Shown piece by piece: positions 869-22,246 of a stretch of DNA of 32,052 bases. Origin of the DNA: Candidatus Methanoperedens sp. (lineage in GTDB: Archaea > Halobacteriota > Methanosarcinia > Methanosarcinales > Methanoperedenaceae); NCBI GenBank assembly GCA_021409285.1, contig JAGFND010000016.1:1-32052 (forward strand), given 5' to 3'. Below the pieces are notes generated by a model, which was given only the letters and a program-made list of their open reading frames with translations, searched no databases and was not told where the DNA came from. How positions within the stretch are numbered: the stretch's first letter is position 1; each line of letters begins with the position of its first letter. Position numbers and translations under genes: made by a program.

Positions 869-958
869 GGGCGCGTGGCCTAGTTGGATATGGCGGCAGC
901 CTCCTAATAATGTCAGGGAGAAAGCTGCAGGTCGGGGGTTCAACTCCCTCCGCGCCCG
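869..958 (+). tRNA. tRNA-Arg(CCT) with 16-nt intron
   Basis: A complete cloverleaf can be drawn: acceptor stem GGGCGCG (869-875) with CGCGCCC (951-957), discriminator G958, D stem GCC/GGC (878-880/892-894), anticodon stem GCAGC/GCTGC (896-900/924-928), a 5-nt variable region, and T arm GGGGG-TTCAACT-CCCTC (934-950). The anticodon loop is 23 nt. Removing 907-922 leaves CTCCTAA, with anticodon CCT at 903-905. Both cut sites are the second base of three-base bulges (TA^A and AA^A) flanking a four-pair helix CTCC/GGAG, which is the bulge-helix-bulge pattern recognised by archaeal splicing endonuclease, at canonical position 37/38. No CCA is encoded. The 3' end overlaps the antisense macro-domain frame. 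Confidence 0.88.
907..922 (+). other. tRNA-Arg intron (16 nt)
   Basis: This is the insert between positions 37 and 38 of tRNA-Arg. It includes GGGAG, whose GGAG pairs with the exon CTCC (901-904) to form the central helix of the splice motif. The remaining loop is only about 8 nt, too short for a full inner helix, so this is a relaxed bulge-helix-bulge and a very small archaeal intron. Confidence 0.75.
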
Positions 959-12517: not shown

Positions 12518-13852
12518 TCATCTCCAGTACGGCTTTCTCAATTCGATATATGCATTATGAGCTACCGTTGCACCATGCGCCACCGCAATAACCACAAGCT
12601 GCAGGTCAGACGCGATATCTCCCACAGCGTAAATACCGTCAATATTCGTTTTCTGCGTCTTATCGGTCTTAAGATACCCCTTCTCATCCATTTCAAGGCC
12701 GAGCTTCTTGAATATCTCCGTGTTCGGAATGAAACCCACTGCCAGTACCACAGAATCCACTACCTGCTGGATGTTTTCATCTTCTTTCAGGTCTTTCATT
12801 ATGACTTTTTCGACCTTATCCGTGCCTGAAATCTCAAGAATTTCGGTATTATAAAGAACTTTAATCTTATCGCTCTCCTTCAGTCGTTCTATCTTATTAG
12901 GAACTGCTCTCAATTCATCTTTATTGCAGGCAATTGTAATGAGGTCTGCCGTGTCATCAAGGCTCAATGCTGCATCGACTGCTGAATTCCCGCTGCCTAC
13001 AATGATGACGCGTTTACCTGTGAAATTCTGGGGGTTTCTGACATAATAATATACTCCCCTTTCATTCTTGCTGAATTTCTCTTCGCCTTTAATGCCCCCT
13101 GCCGCAGGAGAACTGCCTGTAGCAAGGACTACGATCTTGCCTCTGTATTCCCCGCTTTCTGCAATGATCTTATTATCAGGCATGATTTCATTCACTCGCT
13201 CTTTTTTCAATTCCACCTTCAATTTCTTTGCCTCATTCATCCAGCTATTAACAAGATCTGAACACGTAGATTTCTCACAAAGCCCAGGAAAATTCTCGAT
13301 CATTTTGTTGGGGCACAGCCATGAAAGTATGCCACCCCAGTTGGAGGCTTCAAAAACTGCCGTTTTTAGCCCGCGATAAGCGCACAGGATGCCGGAAGTC
13401 AATCCCCCCGGACCTCCTCCCACGATGATTACATCGAAATCGTATTGTTCAGCTTCGATTTTCGCTTTCTCCTCTTTCCTGGCCATATAATTCTGGATAG
13501 CTGCATGAAGCGCATCAGCCGCAAGATTTGAGCAGTGCATTTTTATCGGAGGAAGACCGTCAAGTTCAGCCGCCACATCCCCGCGCGTGATCTTCAATGC
13601 TTCCTCAAGAGTTTTTCCTATAGCCATTTCTGTTATCATGCTGCTGGTTGCGATAGCTGAGCCGCAGCCGAAAGTCTTGAATTTCACATCCTTCAGGATA
13701 TTGTTCTCGACTTTGATCTGGATCTCCATCAAATCCCCACATACTGGATTTCCAACCCTTCCAATTCCATCGGCATCCTTTATCTGGCCTACATTTCTCG
13801 GATTCCTGAAATGATCCATCACCTTTTCTGAATATTCGATTTGTTCTTCCAT
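12518..13852 (-). CDS. IscU scaffold fused to TrxR-like flavin reductase
   Basis: One uninterrupted 444-residue frame. Residues 1-125 are IscU/NifU-N: NPVCGD (Cys38, Asp40), FGCGSA (Cys63) and MHCSN (Cys107). The 25- and 44-residue spacings equal those of A. fulgidus IscU (33, 58, 102) as I recall them. After a charged linker (123-137), residues 138-435 form a two-nucleotide flavoprotein: FAD site VIIVGGGPGG (141-150), NAD(P)H site VGSGNSAVDAAL (285-296) and FAD C-terminal motif GIYAVGDIA (406-414). The CxxC of thioredoxin reductase should lie at about 270-273, where the protein reads YVRN, so it resembles ferredoxin-NADP+ reductases of that family. Predicted role: scaffold for Fe-S assembly with a built-in NAD(P)H electron input. 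Start ATG 13852 chosen for the AGGTGA five bases upstream; a GTG three codons earlier lies within that site. It follows iscS directly. Confidence 0.87.
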   Translation of the reverse strand: MEEQIEYSEKVMDHFRNPRNVGQIKDADGIGRVGNPVCGDLMEIQIKVENNILKDVKFKTFGCGSAIATSSMITEMAIGKTLEEALKITRGDVAAELDGLPPIKMHCSNLAADALHAAIQNYMARKEEKAKIEAEQYDFDVIIVGGGPGGLTSGILCAYRGLKTAVFEASNWGGILSWLCPNKMIENFPGLCEKSTCSDLVNSWMNEAKKLKVELKKERVNEIMPDNKIIAESGEYRGKIVVLATGSSPAAGGIKGEEKFSKNERGVYYYVRNPQNFTGKRVIIVGSGNSAVDAALSLDDTADLITIACNKDELRAVPNKIERLKESDKIKVLYNTEILEISGTDKVEKVIMKDLKEDENIQQVVDSVVLAVGFIPNTEIFKKLGLEMDEKGYLKTDKTQKTNIDGIYAVGDIASDLQLVVIAVAHGATVAHNAYIELRKPYWR

Positions 13853-13861
13853 GATTTTCAC

Positions 13862-15025
13862 CTATTTCATCGGATATAACGGCGACAACGCTCGCAGTTT
13901 TCCCACGATCGCTGGTACTGAGCCAATAACATGATCCACATCACCTTCTGTATTGTATCTTCCAAGCGTGAGCAAGAGCGAACCGTGCGCCTCTTCGTGC
14001 CTTAGTCCCATGGCAATGAGTACATGTGAAGGCTCAAGCGTCTTTGTGGAACAGGCAGAACCTGTGCTTGCTGTTATTCCCAGATCGTTGAGCTGAAGTA
14101 TTATGCTCTCTCCTTCAATGAAACTGAACCTGAAACTTGCATTATTAGGAAGCCTTTTTGTCCTGTGGCCTGTGAGGTAAGTGTATTCAGTCTTCAGGAT
14201 ATTTTCTATCAGCCTGTCCCGCAGTTTCATAAGCTGTGCGCTTTCATCGATCATTTCTTTCTGCGCAAGCTCAGCAGCTTTACCCATCCCGATTATTCCA
14301 GGGATATTTTCAGAGCCACTTCGCATCCCTGATTCCTGACCTCCGCCAAGCATGAACGGTATGAACCTTACTCCCTGTTTCACATAGAGCGCCCCGATTC
14401 CTTTTGGGCCAAGCATATCGTTTGAGGATATAGTCATCATATCTATATGCTCTTTATCCACATCTATCGGCACTTTACCAACCGCAGCCGTCCCATCCAC
14501 ATGGAAAAGTATTTTCTTATCCGATGCAATTTCACCTATCTCTTTTATTGGCTGGATCGTTCCAATTTCCCCATTTGCATACATCACCGAAATGAGGATG
14601 GTCTTATCTGTTATCGCATTTTTTATTTGTTCTGTATTCACAAGACCATCTCTGTCAACAGGGATATGTGTAACCTCAAATCCATTTCTTTGCATGTCTT
14701 TCAGGGTATTCATTACTGACATGTGCTCGATTGAAGTCGTGATTATATGATTTCCTTTATCTTTATACCGCAGCGCTGCGCCGCGAAGTGCAAGATTGTT
14801 CGATTCAGTCGCACCTGATGTGAATGTTATGCTTTTTTGATTTTGTGCACCTATCAGGTCAGCGACTATCTTTCGGGCTGCTTCAAGCTCCCTTTTTGCT
14901 TTTATTCCCTGTGAATGAAGTGAGGAGGGGTTCCCGATATCCTTGTTAAAGAATGGCAGTATTAATTCGATCACTCGTTCATCAACAGGTGACGCTGAAC
15001 CATAGTCCATGTAAACTTGTTTCAT
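13862..15025 (-). CDS. iscS: IscS homologue lacking the PLP lysine
   Basis: Aminotransferase-class-V fold, cysteine desulfurase family, 387 codons from ATG 15025 (MKQVYMDYGSASPVDERV). Kept features: TSGATESNN (69-77), His101 that stacks on PLP in relatives, Asn151, Asp177 and the sulfur-carrying Cys324 in TGSACSTKTLEPSH. The PLP lysine segment is altered: relatives have SGHKxxGPKGIG, but here 200-210 read SSNDMLGPKGI, so Asp203 replaces the Lys. The Gln after Asp177 (VDATQ in bacteria) is also changed (VDGTA). A. fulgidus IscS is known for the same Lys-to-Asp change and for lacking bound PLP. The protein therefore probably does not desulfurate cysteine; it may act as structural partner and Cys ligand for IscU, with sulfide as sulfur source. 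It starts one base after the infB stop and ends 9 bp before the IscU fusion. Confidence 0.9.
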   Translation of the reverse strand: MKQVYMDYGSASPVDERVIELILPFFNKDIGNPSSLHSQGIKAKRELEAARKIVADLIGAQNQKSITFTSGATESNNLALRGAALRYKDKGNHIITTSIEHMSVMNTLKDMQRNGFEVTHIPVDRDGLVNTEQIKNAITDKTILISVMYANGEIGTIQPIKEIGEIASDKKILFHVDGTAAVGKVPIDVDKEHIDMMTISSNDMLGPKGIGALYVKQGVRFIPFMLGGGQESGMRSGSENIPGIIGMGKAAELAQKEMIDESAQLMKLRDRLIENILKTEYTYLTGHRTKRLPNNASFRFSFIEGESIILQLNDLGITASTGSACSTKTLEPSHVLIAMGLRHEEAHGSLLLTLGRYNTEGDVDHVIGSVPAIVGKLRALSPLYPMK

Positions 15026-15026
15026 T

Positions 15027-16790
15027 TTATTTTCCCCAGAACGGAGCACCTCTTCTTTTGATCGTCATATAGGCCATTAAAGTCTCCTTATCCTCAATTT
15101 TCATTGATTCAAATAACTCCTGTTCCGCTATTTTTGCATGTTTCTCGGGCACATCTATATAAAGGATATCTCCTTCCTTTATCTGGCGTCCCACAGTCGG
15201 CCCGTCTATGGCCATCGCCACTTCTTTACCAGATGATGCTTCACTTATATTCTCATTGTTTTCCTGGAGACCTTTTATTATCCCGACTATCGAACCATCC
15301 TCTCTCATTACATCAAGATTGGTCTTTATTACACCCCCCATAACTCTAACCCCTACGACTGCTGGTTTGCTCTGCCTGAACGTACAGTCCGGCATTATAA
15401 TGAACCTTCCCGGTTTTATGATCTTTTCATATCGTTTCTTTTCGATGAGCTGTTTTTGCTCTGTGACCCATTTCTTATAATCCTCTATGAGCCGATATAT
15501 CACATCGTTAAGGAATAATTTAATATCAGAACCAAGGAGTTCTTCTTTGGCATCCGGAAGAACATCCACCTCAAAACCGAGGACAACAGAAAAAAGCGGG
15601 TCTTTAATGGTTTTCACTTCTGCGATATCTCGTTTTGAAATATCACCGATATCTGCCCTGCGTATCGGTATTTTCTCTTTTTTCAACTCATTGACAAGAG
15701 CTTCGAGCGATCCGATGGTATCTGATTTTATCAATATCCCGTTTGACTCAGTTTCGATCCTTACTGCATCAATCTCTGATTTAATTGCAATTGAGACTTC
15801 ATCAATGTTATCCAGGGCCACCCTTATCTGTGAACCTGCCAGAGCTCCCTCAAGATCCGGTGCAGCGATCTTTATCCCTGATGCTGCGACCACTTTCTTG
15901 ACCTGCTTGAATTTTTCCTCTGAGCGAATTTCAGAAAGCGCCCTTGGTTTTAGCAGTGCGCGGATCTTTGTGACTATTGGATCGCCGCGGCTGCCCACGA
16001 CTACTGTATCCCCGACGTTCATCTCACCATCATATAAGATAACATCAAGTGTCGTGCCAAGACCGATCTCTTCTTTCACTTCAAGAACTGTCCCGGTTCC
16101 GGGCCCGACCGCCCTGTATTCCAGGTCTTTTTCAAGGAATCTCCGGGCCAGTCCCATTAAAACCATTAGAAGATCAGATACTCCCTCTCCCGTCTTTGCA
16201 CTGAGCGGCATAACTCCAATATTTCGCTGAAAATCGCGTACCCTGTCATATCTGTCGGAACTGAAACCCTGTTCATAGAGTTTTCCAATTATCACATATA
16301 TTTTTTCGTCAAGAGCCACTTTTACATGTTCGGCCTGTTCAGGATATGAGGTGATAAAAGGCTGTCCGGGCTTTGGATTCCAGCCGGCTATCCTGTCAAT
16401 CTTATTTGCCGCGACCACAAAAGGTGTTTTGAAACGTTTAAGTATTTCCACGGCTTCCAGCGTCTGGGGCTGGAATCCTTCATTCACATCAACCACAAGC
16501 ACTGCAAGATCTGCAAGCGCTCCTCCTCTTGCTCTTAGTGTCGTGAATGCACGGTGTCCCGGAGTATCGATGAAAAGGAGGCCTGGCACTTTTGTATCCC
16601 CTTTGAAAATAGATCCACATACGCGTTTTATTACATCAAGCGGAACCTCGGTTGCACCGATGTGCTGCGTGATGAGACCAGCTTCCTGCTCCGCTATTGT
16701 TGTGCCCCTGATCCTGTCAAGTAATGAGGTCTTACCATGGTCTACATGCCCCATCACACATACTATAGGGGTGCGCAGATTCTGTGCCAT
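15027..16790 (-). CDS. infB: Translation initiation factor aIF5B
   Basis: GTPase that promotes ribosomal subunit joining and initiator tRNA placement, 587 residues, the usual archaeal size without the long bacterial or eukaryal N-terminal extension. G motifs: GHVDHGKTS (14-22), DTPGH, and AANKIDR. Domain II (beta barrel), III and IV follow, ending in KRRGAPFWGK. No intein is present. It has its own TATA box about 25 bp upstream and a hairpin separates it from ndk, so it can be transcribed independently of the ribosomal genes. The iscS ATG follows after one base. Confidence 0.96.
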   Translation of the reverse strand: MAQNLRTPIVCVMGHVDHGKTSLLDRIRGTTIAEQEAGLITQHIGATEVPLDVIKRVCGSIFKGDTKVPGLLFIDTPGHRAFTTLRARGGALADLAVLVVDVNEGFQPQTLEAVEILKRFKTPFVVAANKIDRIAGWNPKPGQPFITSYPEQAEHVKVALDEKIYVIIGKLYEQGFSSDRYDRVRDFQRNIGVMPLSAKTGEGVSDLLMVLMGLARRFLEKDLEYRAVGPGTGTVLEVKEEIGLGTTLDVILYDGEMNVGDTVVVGSRGDPIVTKIRALLKPRALSEIRSEEKFKQVKKVVAASGIKIAAPDLEGALAGSQIRVALDNIDEVSIAIKSEIDAVRIETESNGILIKSDTIGSLEALVNELKKEKIPIRRADIGDISKRDIAEVKTIKDPLFSVVLGFEVDVLPDAKEELLGSDIKLFLNDVIYRLIEDYKKWVTEQKQLIEKKRYEKIIKPGRFIIMPDCTFRQSKPAVVGVRVMGGVIKTNLDVMREDGSIVGIIKGLQENNENISEASSGKEVAMAIDGPTVGRQIKEGDILYIDVPEKHAKIAEQELFESMKIEDKETLMAYMTIKRRGAPFWGK

Positions 16791-20968: not shown

Positions 20969-22246
20969 CTATTTCTTCTCCCACTTATGAAGTTGAAGCA
21001 CTTCAGAAAGGGTTTTTCCTCTTTTTATCTCATCCCGTATCCTGCGTTCGGTCTTTTCAACTTCGATAGCCCTTCTCGCTATTTCATAGCCCCGTTCTAC
21101 CGGAACGACGACCACACCATTGTCGTCTCCCACTATAAAATCTTCGGATTTGACTGTTTGACCTCCGCACTGTATCTCCGCATTAATCTCACCGAACCCT
21201 TTGGGTTCACCGGCATTCGGAACAATGGAAGTGGCAAATACAGGAAAATTGAGTTTCCTTATATCATCTACATCCCTTACCGCGCCATCAATAACCACGC
21301 CTGAGATTCCCTTGTTGATGCAGCTTAAGGTTGCAAGTTCTCCCCATGGAGCGATGTGAGGACTCCCGTTATAGATCACAATAATATCACCTTTTTTGGC
21401 GATGTCTATTGCTTCGACGGCTTTTGCCCAATCACCGGAAAATGTCTGTACAGTGACCGCTTTTCCAGCGATTTTATTTCCAGGGCAAATAGAGTGGATG
21501 TTTTTCATGGCACCTTTCCTGTGCATTGCGTCTGAGATGTTGGGCGTAGATACACGCTTCAGTAATTCTATTGTTTTCTCATCAATGGATATTTCTTCGA
21601 CTTCTGTAATTTCGGGTGCATCGATGCTCTTTCGTATGATCCTTGCAGAGGCAGTAACATCAGATGAACGGACAATATTCCCCCCGACTATTACAATACT
21701 CGCGCCTGACAGGACAGCCCTTGCTGCGCTCTTTTCATCAAGTCCCCCTGCAACGGCGACGGGCACCCTGAGCTTTAGCTTTTTGAGATATTGTACAGGA
21801 TCTTCACCGATCATCTGCTGGTCGATGCCAACATGGATATTTATATAGTCGATTCCCAGTTCCTGCAATTCCAGTGCTCTTTTCACTGGATCTTCACTGG
21901 AAAGAAGATCTGCCATGAGCTTAACTCCATATTTTCTTGCTGCTCTTAATGCATCCTGGATTGTGGAGTCATCCGCGCTCCCGAGAATTATTATAATATC
22001 AGCTCCAGCTTTTGCTGCCATTTCGATCTCCATGGCGCCTGTATCGACCGTCTTCATATCCGCAAGTATAATATGATCCGGAATGGCTGTTTTCAGGTTT
22101 CTTATTGCATTCATTCCTTCGCTTTTTATTAAGGGAGTTCCTGCTTCTATCCAGTCTACTCCACCGGCAATGGCCTCTTCTGCTATCTGTATAGCCCGCT
22201 CTATTTCAAGAACATCAAGAGCGACCTGCAGTATGGGTTTAATAAT
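20969..22246 (-). CDS. Hexulose-6-P synthase fused to RraA-like domain
   Basis: A two-domain enzyme of about 425 residues. The N-terminal part (about 1-215) is 3-hexulose-6-phosphate synthase of the OMP-decarboxylase superfamily: [36 protein letters not shown] and INIHVG. In archaea it runs in reverse to make ribulose-5-phosphate for ribose synthesis, releasing formaldehyde. The C-terminal part (about 235-400) is RraA/HMG-aldolase-like, with [13 protein letters not shown]. Such fusions are known from methanogens. The first ATG in frame is at 22114, inside the barrel, but homology runs on to about 22246, where only ATT codons are in frame. An ATG (22254) and a GTG (22251) stand just upstream in another frame. 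A rare start or a one-base indel is implied. Confidence 0.85.

Follow-up and report, generated by a model that had tools for sequence, protein, structure and literature searches.

What does an IscS protein do once it has lost the lysine that anchors PLP? The question is posed by a gene of the methane-oxidising archaeon Candidatus Methanoperedens sp. (assembly GCA_021409285.1, contig JAGFND010000016.1) lying in a stretch of 32,052 nucleotides that was analysed whole and is here called the window. The gene occupies 15025..13862 on the minus strand and encodes 387 amino acids from an ATG at 15025 (reading of the ORF also shows an in-frame GTG at 15049 as an alternative start). Its product belongs to the IscS/NifS family over its full length: it matches Aminotran_5 in Pfam (PF00266, E = 2e-75), its top match in the PDB is IscS of A. 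fulgidus (4eb5, E = 4e-140), and it scores 498 bits against TIGR03402, under the cut-off of that model (530.75). As a preliminary description of this DNA had it, residues 200–208 read SSNDMLGPK in an open minus-strand frame, with Asp203 (codon GAT, 14417..14419) at the site of the PLP Schiff-base lysine (E. coli K206); the neighbouring codon 202 (AAC, 14420-14422) places Asn at the site of E. coli H205. The arginine that binds the substrate carboxylate (E. coli R354) is also absent, Leu351 (13973..13975) standing in its place. The description was right that a glutamine is changed, but put it next to Asp177, whereas the residue in question, Ala180 (14486..14488) at the site of E. coli Q183, lies three positions further on; it was equally right that the sulfur-accepting cysteine of the mobile loop remains, although this is residue 325 (14051..14053; E. 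coli C328, cluster ligand C321 in A. fulgidus) and not 324. His101 and Asp177 are kept, as it said.

The signature of the window protein (Asn-Asp for His-Lys, loss of Gln183 and Arg354, retention of the Cys) is that of A. fulgidus IscS, for which the Lys-to-Asp substitution was already known; the alignment shows SSNDIYGPKG in 4eb5, in agreement with the description. A sequencing error at codon 203, against which the preliminary description had warned, is excluded: Asp is present in all same-genus full-length genes read, in A. fulgidus IscS and throughout a collection of 150 distinct sequences. Conversion of GAT to a Lys codon (AAR) would require two base changes. Within the genus the gene is under strong purifying selection (median dN/dS over pairs 0.07).

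To our knowledge, A. fulgidus IscS has so far looked like an isolated and puzzling example of a desulfurase that lacks the lysine. A degenerate-DNA search of GTDB contigs for the Asp motif recovered at least 118 loci: Asp-IscS is no oddity but a large family that spans many archaeal and several bacterial phyla. Among the matches listed, 41 are from Bathyarchaeota; other archaea are Methanobacteriota (in the NCBI sense), Thermoplasmatota, Nitrososphaerota, Hadarchaeota and several Asgard lineages, and the bacteria include Thermodesulfobacteriota, WOR-3/Stahlbacteria, Nitrospinota and Bacillota. Within the phylum to which the window belongs the motif occurs in 34 of 393 genomes. Asn and Asp were part of the search pattern and are invariant in those loci by construction; loci found from protein similarity alone (L007-L034, L204-L211) independently show Asn-Asp. 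In a quick unrooted tree from which most trait columns had been removed, 60 Asp-IscS representatives group together, the sole intruder being the long E. coli branch, and a single Asp-IscS clade is not rejected (AU p = 0.47; root not inferred).

The substitution does not stand alone. We aligned 150 distinct Asp-IscS and 62 Lys-IscS sequences on E. coli IscS and compared positions outside the search pattern (Arg354, Gln183, Asn155, Cys328, Thr76, His104 and Asp180). Substrate Arg354 is absent from 149 of 150 Asp-IscS and present in all 62 Lys-IscS; Gln183 is likewise absent from 149 of 150 and present in 61 of 62; Asn155 is mostly changed in the former and kept in 61 of 62 of the latter. In contrast, the sulfur-accepting Cys328 is kept without exception (150/150 and 62/62), and so are the PLP-pocket residues of Asp-IscS: Thr76 and His104 in 150/150, Asp180 in 149/150 and, with these, Ser203 in at least 148/150. 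The chemistry of cysteine attack has thus disappeared as one set, whereas the sulfur-accepting cysteine and most of the cofactor pocket remain. Joint loss of Lys, His, Gln and the substrate Arg supports the earlier suggestion that the protein is probably desulfurase-dead, in line with the inactivity reported for the A. fulgidus enzyme, as cited in PMC7585200. That A. fulgidus IscS lacks PLP altogether, as the same description held, may be too strong a statement given how well Thr76, His104 and Asp180 are conserved; the protein was reportedly isolated with PMP. In PMC9769115 the legend of one figure gives PLP as part of the A. fulgidus complex 4EB5.

Clustering of neighbouring genes reveals three recurrent partners of Asp-iscS: iscU downstream and, upstream, genes assigned by Pfam to the TusA (PF01206) and DsrE (PF02635) families, the order being tusA-dsrE-iscS-iscU. 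Among loci whose upstream sequence extends to 700 bp or more, tusA and/or dsrE lies directly upstream of 118 of 133 Asp-iscS genes and of none of 38 Lys-iscS genes (Fisher p 4e-26, a value inflated by relatedness among the loci and hence no true probability); a lax re-check found neither carrier at any of the 62 Lys loci. The TusA CPxP cysteine is conserved in 48 of 48 sequences and one DsrE cysteine in 37 of 37.

The window is among the 15 of 133 Asp-iscS loci that neither carrier adjoins. Whereas dsrE is found immediately upstream of Asp-iscS in same-genus genomes, its place is taken here by a gene for an aIF5B-like translation factor (15027..16790, minus strand; Pfam). The single dsrE of this genome resides on another contig (G000:C204:3431-3790) and is 82% identical to its relative; the tusA genes are also elsewhere, not directly upstream. 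Among 40 relatives dsrE is present in 27 of 29 genomes with Asp-IscS and in none of 11 genomes without it, and in both exceptions the contig that bears Asp-iscS ends at this gene or a short way upstream of it. The link between dsrE and Asp-IscS survives a break of synteny in the window's own genome. Elsewhere in the window, an Rfam alignment places at 869-958 (plus strand) a tRNA whose anticodon region is extended by about 18 bases and for which ARAGORN returns a nonsensical anticodon of four bases; this is probably an intron-containing archaeal tRNA. At 20969-22114 (minus strand) Pfam shows an OMP-decarboxylase/HUMPS-like domain fused to an RraA-like aldolase domain.

The partnership with IscU that had been proposed is supported: iscU is the next gene, in the form of a fusion. 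The complete ORF (13861..12518, minus strand, 447 aa) directly follows Asp-iscS. Residues 1-132 (13466..13861, minus) constitute an IscU scaffold domain (NifU_N, E = 2e-49 in Pfam; NifU_clost above the NCBIfam cut-off) in which the motifs GNPVCGD, FGCGS and MHCSNLA supply the three Cys and the Asp ligands of the cluster. Residues from about 140 to 447 (12518..13444, minus) form a TrxR/FNR-type FAD/NAD(P)H flavoprotein domain (Pyr_redox_2, E = 3e-41 in Pfam; a TIGR01292 match falls under its cut-off). The CxxC active site of TrxR is absent and YYYVRNP occupies its position; GxGxxG motifs are retained; some members of the genus also have the HRRxxxR NADPH motif, which is absent from the window. 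By sequence the domain matches TrxR in the PDB, with FNR2 (6gas/3lzw) ranking below, and fold comparison suggests the same order from a low-confidence AF2 model (pLDDT 70, last 60 residues poor).

The same fusion occurs in ANME-2, a second family of the order (52-55% identity); among 393 genomes of the phylum no further full fusion was found beyond the genus and ANME-2 at E<=1e-90. At two other loci (L080 and L102) a separate flavoprotein gene directly follows iscU. IscU carries a fused but degenerate NAD-binding half in several bacteria, in one lokiarchaeon and in a further family of this phylum. The C-terminal half of the bacterial protein matches the TrxR family by fold and by weak sequence similarity: its predicted structure (pLDDT 79) resembles IscU (4eb5_C) and, over a second stretch of about 120-130 columns, TrxR-like proteins. 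Given this degeneracy, a redox role is possible only where the FAD domain is kept. The scaffold shows other variations. Asgard IscU genes at L108:1587-3185 (-), a Sifarchaeum, and L166:818-2401 (+) carry a LAGLIDADG intein inserted exactly at the active-site Cys of the scaffold (GNPV/C...CGD), with Pfam matches to the intein and LAGLIDADG for L108. L190:1130-1582, L194:1598-2041 and L203:1568-2140 encode a different kind of NifU_N protein, which stands alone and has GTCGDT as its changed first motif; no IscS was found beside them.

A second, Lys-bearing IscS or SufS was sought in the genome, as had been advised, and both were found. On contig C90 is an IscS, 54% identical to the window protein, with SAHKIYGPK, the substrate Arg and, as a separate protein, an IscU of its own; on contig C241 is a Lys-bearing SufS-like protein. 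Asp-IscS as the lone replacement of a desulfurase is thus unsupported here. The Asp-type gene and the IscU-flavoprotein fusion are present in 23 of 23 same-genus genomes examined (the former once as a partial match), most of which also carry the Lys-IscS/IscU pair. Genomes in which Asp-IscS is the sole IscS match do occur, but are mostly incomplete MAGs, many with SufS-like proteins; no firm case was found, and both complete chromosomes checked carry another strong class-V match. One ANME-2-type genome (G032; L032/L232 and L061) has two Asp-iscS genes with IscU-flavoprotein fusions; each copy is accompanied by a dsrE of its own and has a tusA nearby.

These findings bear on the earlier suggestion that the protein serves an organism living with free sulfide. 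Such a conclusion is not warranted: with a canonical Lys-IscS/IscU pair and a Lys-bearing SufS-like protein in the same genome, dependence on free sulfide ceases to be the most economical reading, and the conserved neighbours, TusA and DsrE, carry sulfane sulfur, which would be unneeded were sulfide freely available. The usual habitat of Methanoperedens is low-sulfide freshwater.

A desulfurase-dead IscS that shares its operon with genes for TusA and DsrE, both of which keep a cysteine, is most simply a receiver of sulfur. The explanation that we favour, with confidence falling just short of even, is that Asp-IscS is a platform fed with sulfur by DsrE/TusA, which hands it on to IscU and, where a flavoprotein is fused, draws on its electrons. 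DsrE and TusA would deliver persulfide (sulfane) sulfur from an inorganic or protein source; the sulfur would reach an IscU bound to the Asp-IscS dimer either directly or via Cys325, a residue that may also ligate the forming [2Fe-2S] cluster transiently. Where IscU is fused to a flavoprotein, as in Methanoperedens and ANME-2, the flavoprotein would provide electrons from NAD(P)H, reducing S0 to sulfide and so taking the part of ferredoxin in ISC. Delivery of electrons cannot be general, because many Asp-IscS systems are without a flavoprotein and some bacteria have the degenerate half only. The whole would work alongside the canonical Lys-IscS/IscU pair and would not replace it. We infer the source of the sulfur, its direction of flow and the delivery of electrons; alternatively, TusA/DsrE could receive their sulfur from another source, and Asp-IscS would then be no more than a docking site. 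In E. coli the TusA and IscU sites on IscS compete, yet both proteins are bound in one heterocomplex (PMC11302665).

The view published for A. fulgidus, shared by the preliminary description, is that the part of Asp-IscS is confined to holding IscU and providing Cys325 as the fourth cluster ligand, while S2- and Fe2+ come from solution. In the A. fulgidus protein, as cited in PMC9769115, a [2Fe-2S] cluster is held by three Cys of IscU and Cys321 of IscS; together with the missing desulfurase activity (PMC7585200) and the retention of the Cys in all 150 Asp-IscS, this speaks for such a scaffold, as does the observation that IscU can be fed by H2S in iscS-deficient E. coli (PMC13015791). This model, of an inactive desulfurase with Cys321 on the cluster, accounts for the retained Cys and for the scaffold function but offers no reason for the carriers: the conserved tusA/dsrE neighbours and their co-occurrence go unexplained, and so does a flavoprotein on IscU, given that sulfide needs no reduction. 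On balance we consider free sulfide an unlikely source, if one to be taken seriously.

An enzyme of another kind is improbable, although the kept pocket invites the thought: PMP or PLP would be bound non-covalently and Asp203 would act as the base. Fold type I includes Lys-less PMP enzymes. The retention of Thr76, His104, Asp180 and Ser203 and the PLP drawn in 4EB5 (in the legend cited above) are consistent with this, but folding may be the reason why these residues are kept, the substrate Arg354 and Gln183 are lost, and the gene shares its operon with sulfur carriers and a scaffold. The Lys-IscS/IscU pair of the same genome, and of most genomes of the genus, brings to mind a regulatory pseudo-enzyme that pairs with or competes against Lys-IscS and thereby tunes sulfur supply; set against a dedicated, fused IscU, an operon of its own and some genomes (the mostly incomplete ones mentioned) without a Lys-IscS match, such a role is very doubtful. 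A decaying pseudogene or a sequencing artefact, for which loss of catalytic residues is all that speaks, is refuted for practical purposes by an ORF open in all relatives, the dN/dS of 0.07, the operon context and the conservation of the Cys and other residues across 150 sequences.

The proposed platform fed by DsrE/TusA would have wider implications. A tentative extension, to which we give rather less than even credence, is that cysteine-independent Fe-S assembly is widespread in anaerobes, inorganic sulfane sulfur passing from TusA/DsrE through an emptied IscS to IscU with electrons from a fused or adjacent flavoprotein, and that this is possibly close to the ancestral use of IscS, before or beside cysteine desulfuration. 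If the platform model is right, a large share of anaerobic archaea would assemble Fe-S clusters without a cysteine desulfurase even where 'IscS' is annotated; metabolic reconstructions would change (cysteine demand, sulfur source), and the first workings of minimal systems attributed to LUCA would be seen differently. A. fulgidus IscS becomes one member of a large family whose consistent gene context points to the source of its sulfur, and the question of the archaeal sulfur donor can be put to a direct test using three or four small proteins. In the open-access literature searched we found no report of tusA-dsrE-iscS-iscU operons or IscU-TrxR fusions, nor of the extent of the family, the accompanying loss of the substrate Arg or the coupling to TusA/DsrE; the primary papers on A. 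fulgidus lie outside that literature, and a prior report is possible.

Among known systems the closest is IscS2-IscU of A. fulgidus (PDB 4eb5, 4eb7, 4hvk), which shares with the window the SSND motif, Lys-to-Asp, His-to-Asn, Leu for the substrate Arg (TLLLTLGR), the same Cys and an adjacent iscU; a further A. fulgidus entry, 4r5f, has Lys at the position equivalent to Asp203. The window differs in the fusion of IscU to a flavoprotein and in having dsrE on another contig; the Archaeoglobus-type genome closest to the crystallised IscS among those searched (L384) reads tusA-dsrE-iscS-iscU, unlike the window locus. Methanosarcina acetivorans IscS1-IscU1 (MA0808/MA0807) pairs an IscS without the essential Lys with an enlarged IscU (PMC7585200). 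Its relatives in Methanosarcinaceae form a separate branch, with Lys changed to Thr, His104 to Asp and Gln183 to His and with the substrate Arg kept. In two of them (L184:846-2051 (-) and L185:392-1714 (+)) the adjoining IscU is fused to a MIP18/PF01883 domain; a relic of the same flavoprotein was considered for this extension and rejected, the domain being MIP18-like.

Canonical IscS/IscU (E. coli ISC and the copy on C90) shares with Asp-IscS the fold, the IscU partnership, the Cys loop, Thr76, His104 and Asp180. Asp-IscS is without the PLP Lys, the substrate Arg and Gln183, whereas canonical loci are without upstream tusA/dsrE and without the IscU-flavoprotein fusion. The 'minimal ISC system' (MIS, MisS-MisU) of anaerobes is described as having a cysteine desulfurase (PMC12192291). 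It resembles Asp-IscS loci in size, with a two-gene layout of desulfurase and scaffold, no cluster carriers and an anaerobic host; it differs in that Asp-IscS cannot be a desulfurase and in that sulfur-carrier genes join the Asp-IscS operon. The relay of E. coli, from IscS through TusA to the DsrE-type TusBCD, offers a parallel for the carriers: there IscS binds both TusA and IscU, and DsrE-type proteins and TusA relay persulfide. In that relay IscS is the source of the sulfur. Asp-IscS cannot be, and the flow is therefore either reversed with respect to the E. coli relay or bypasses Asp-IscS.
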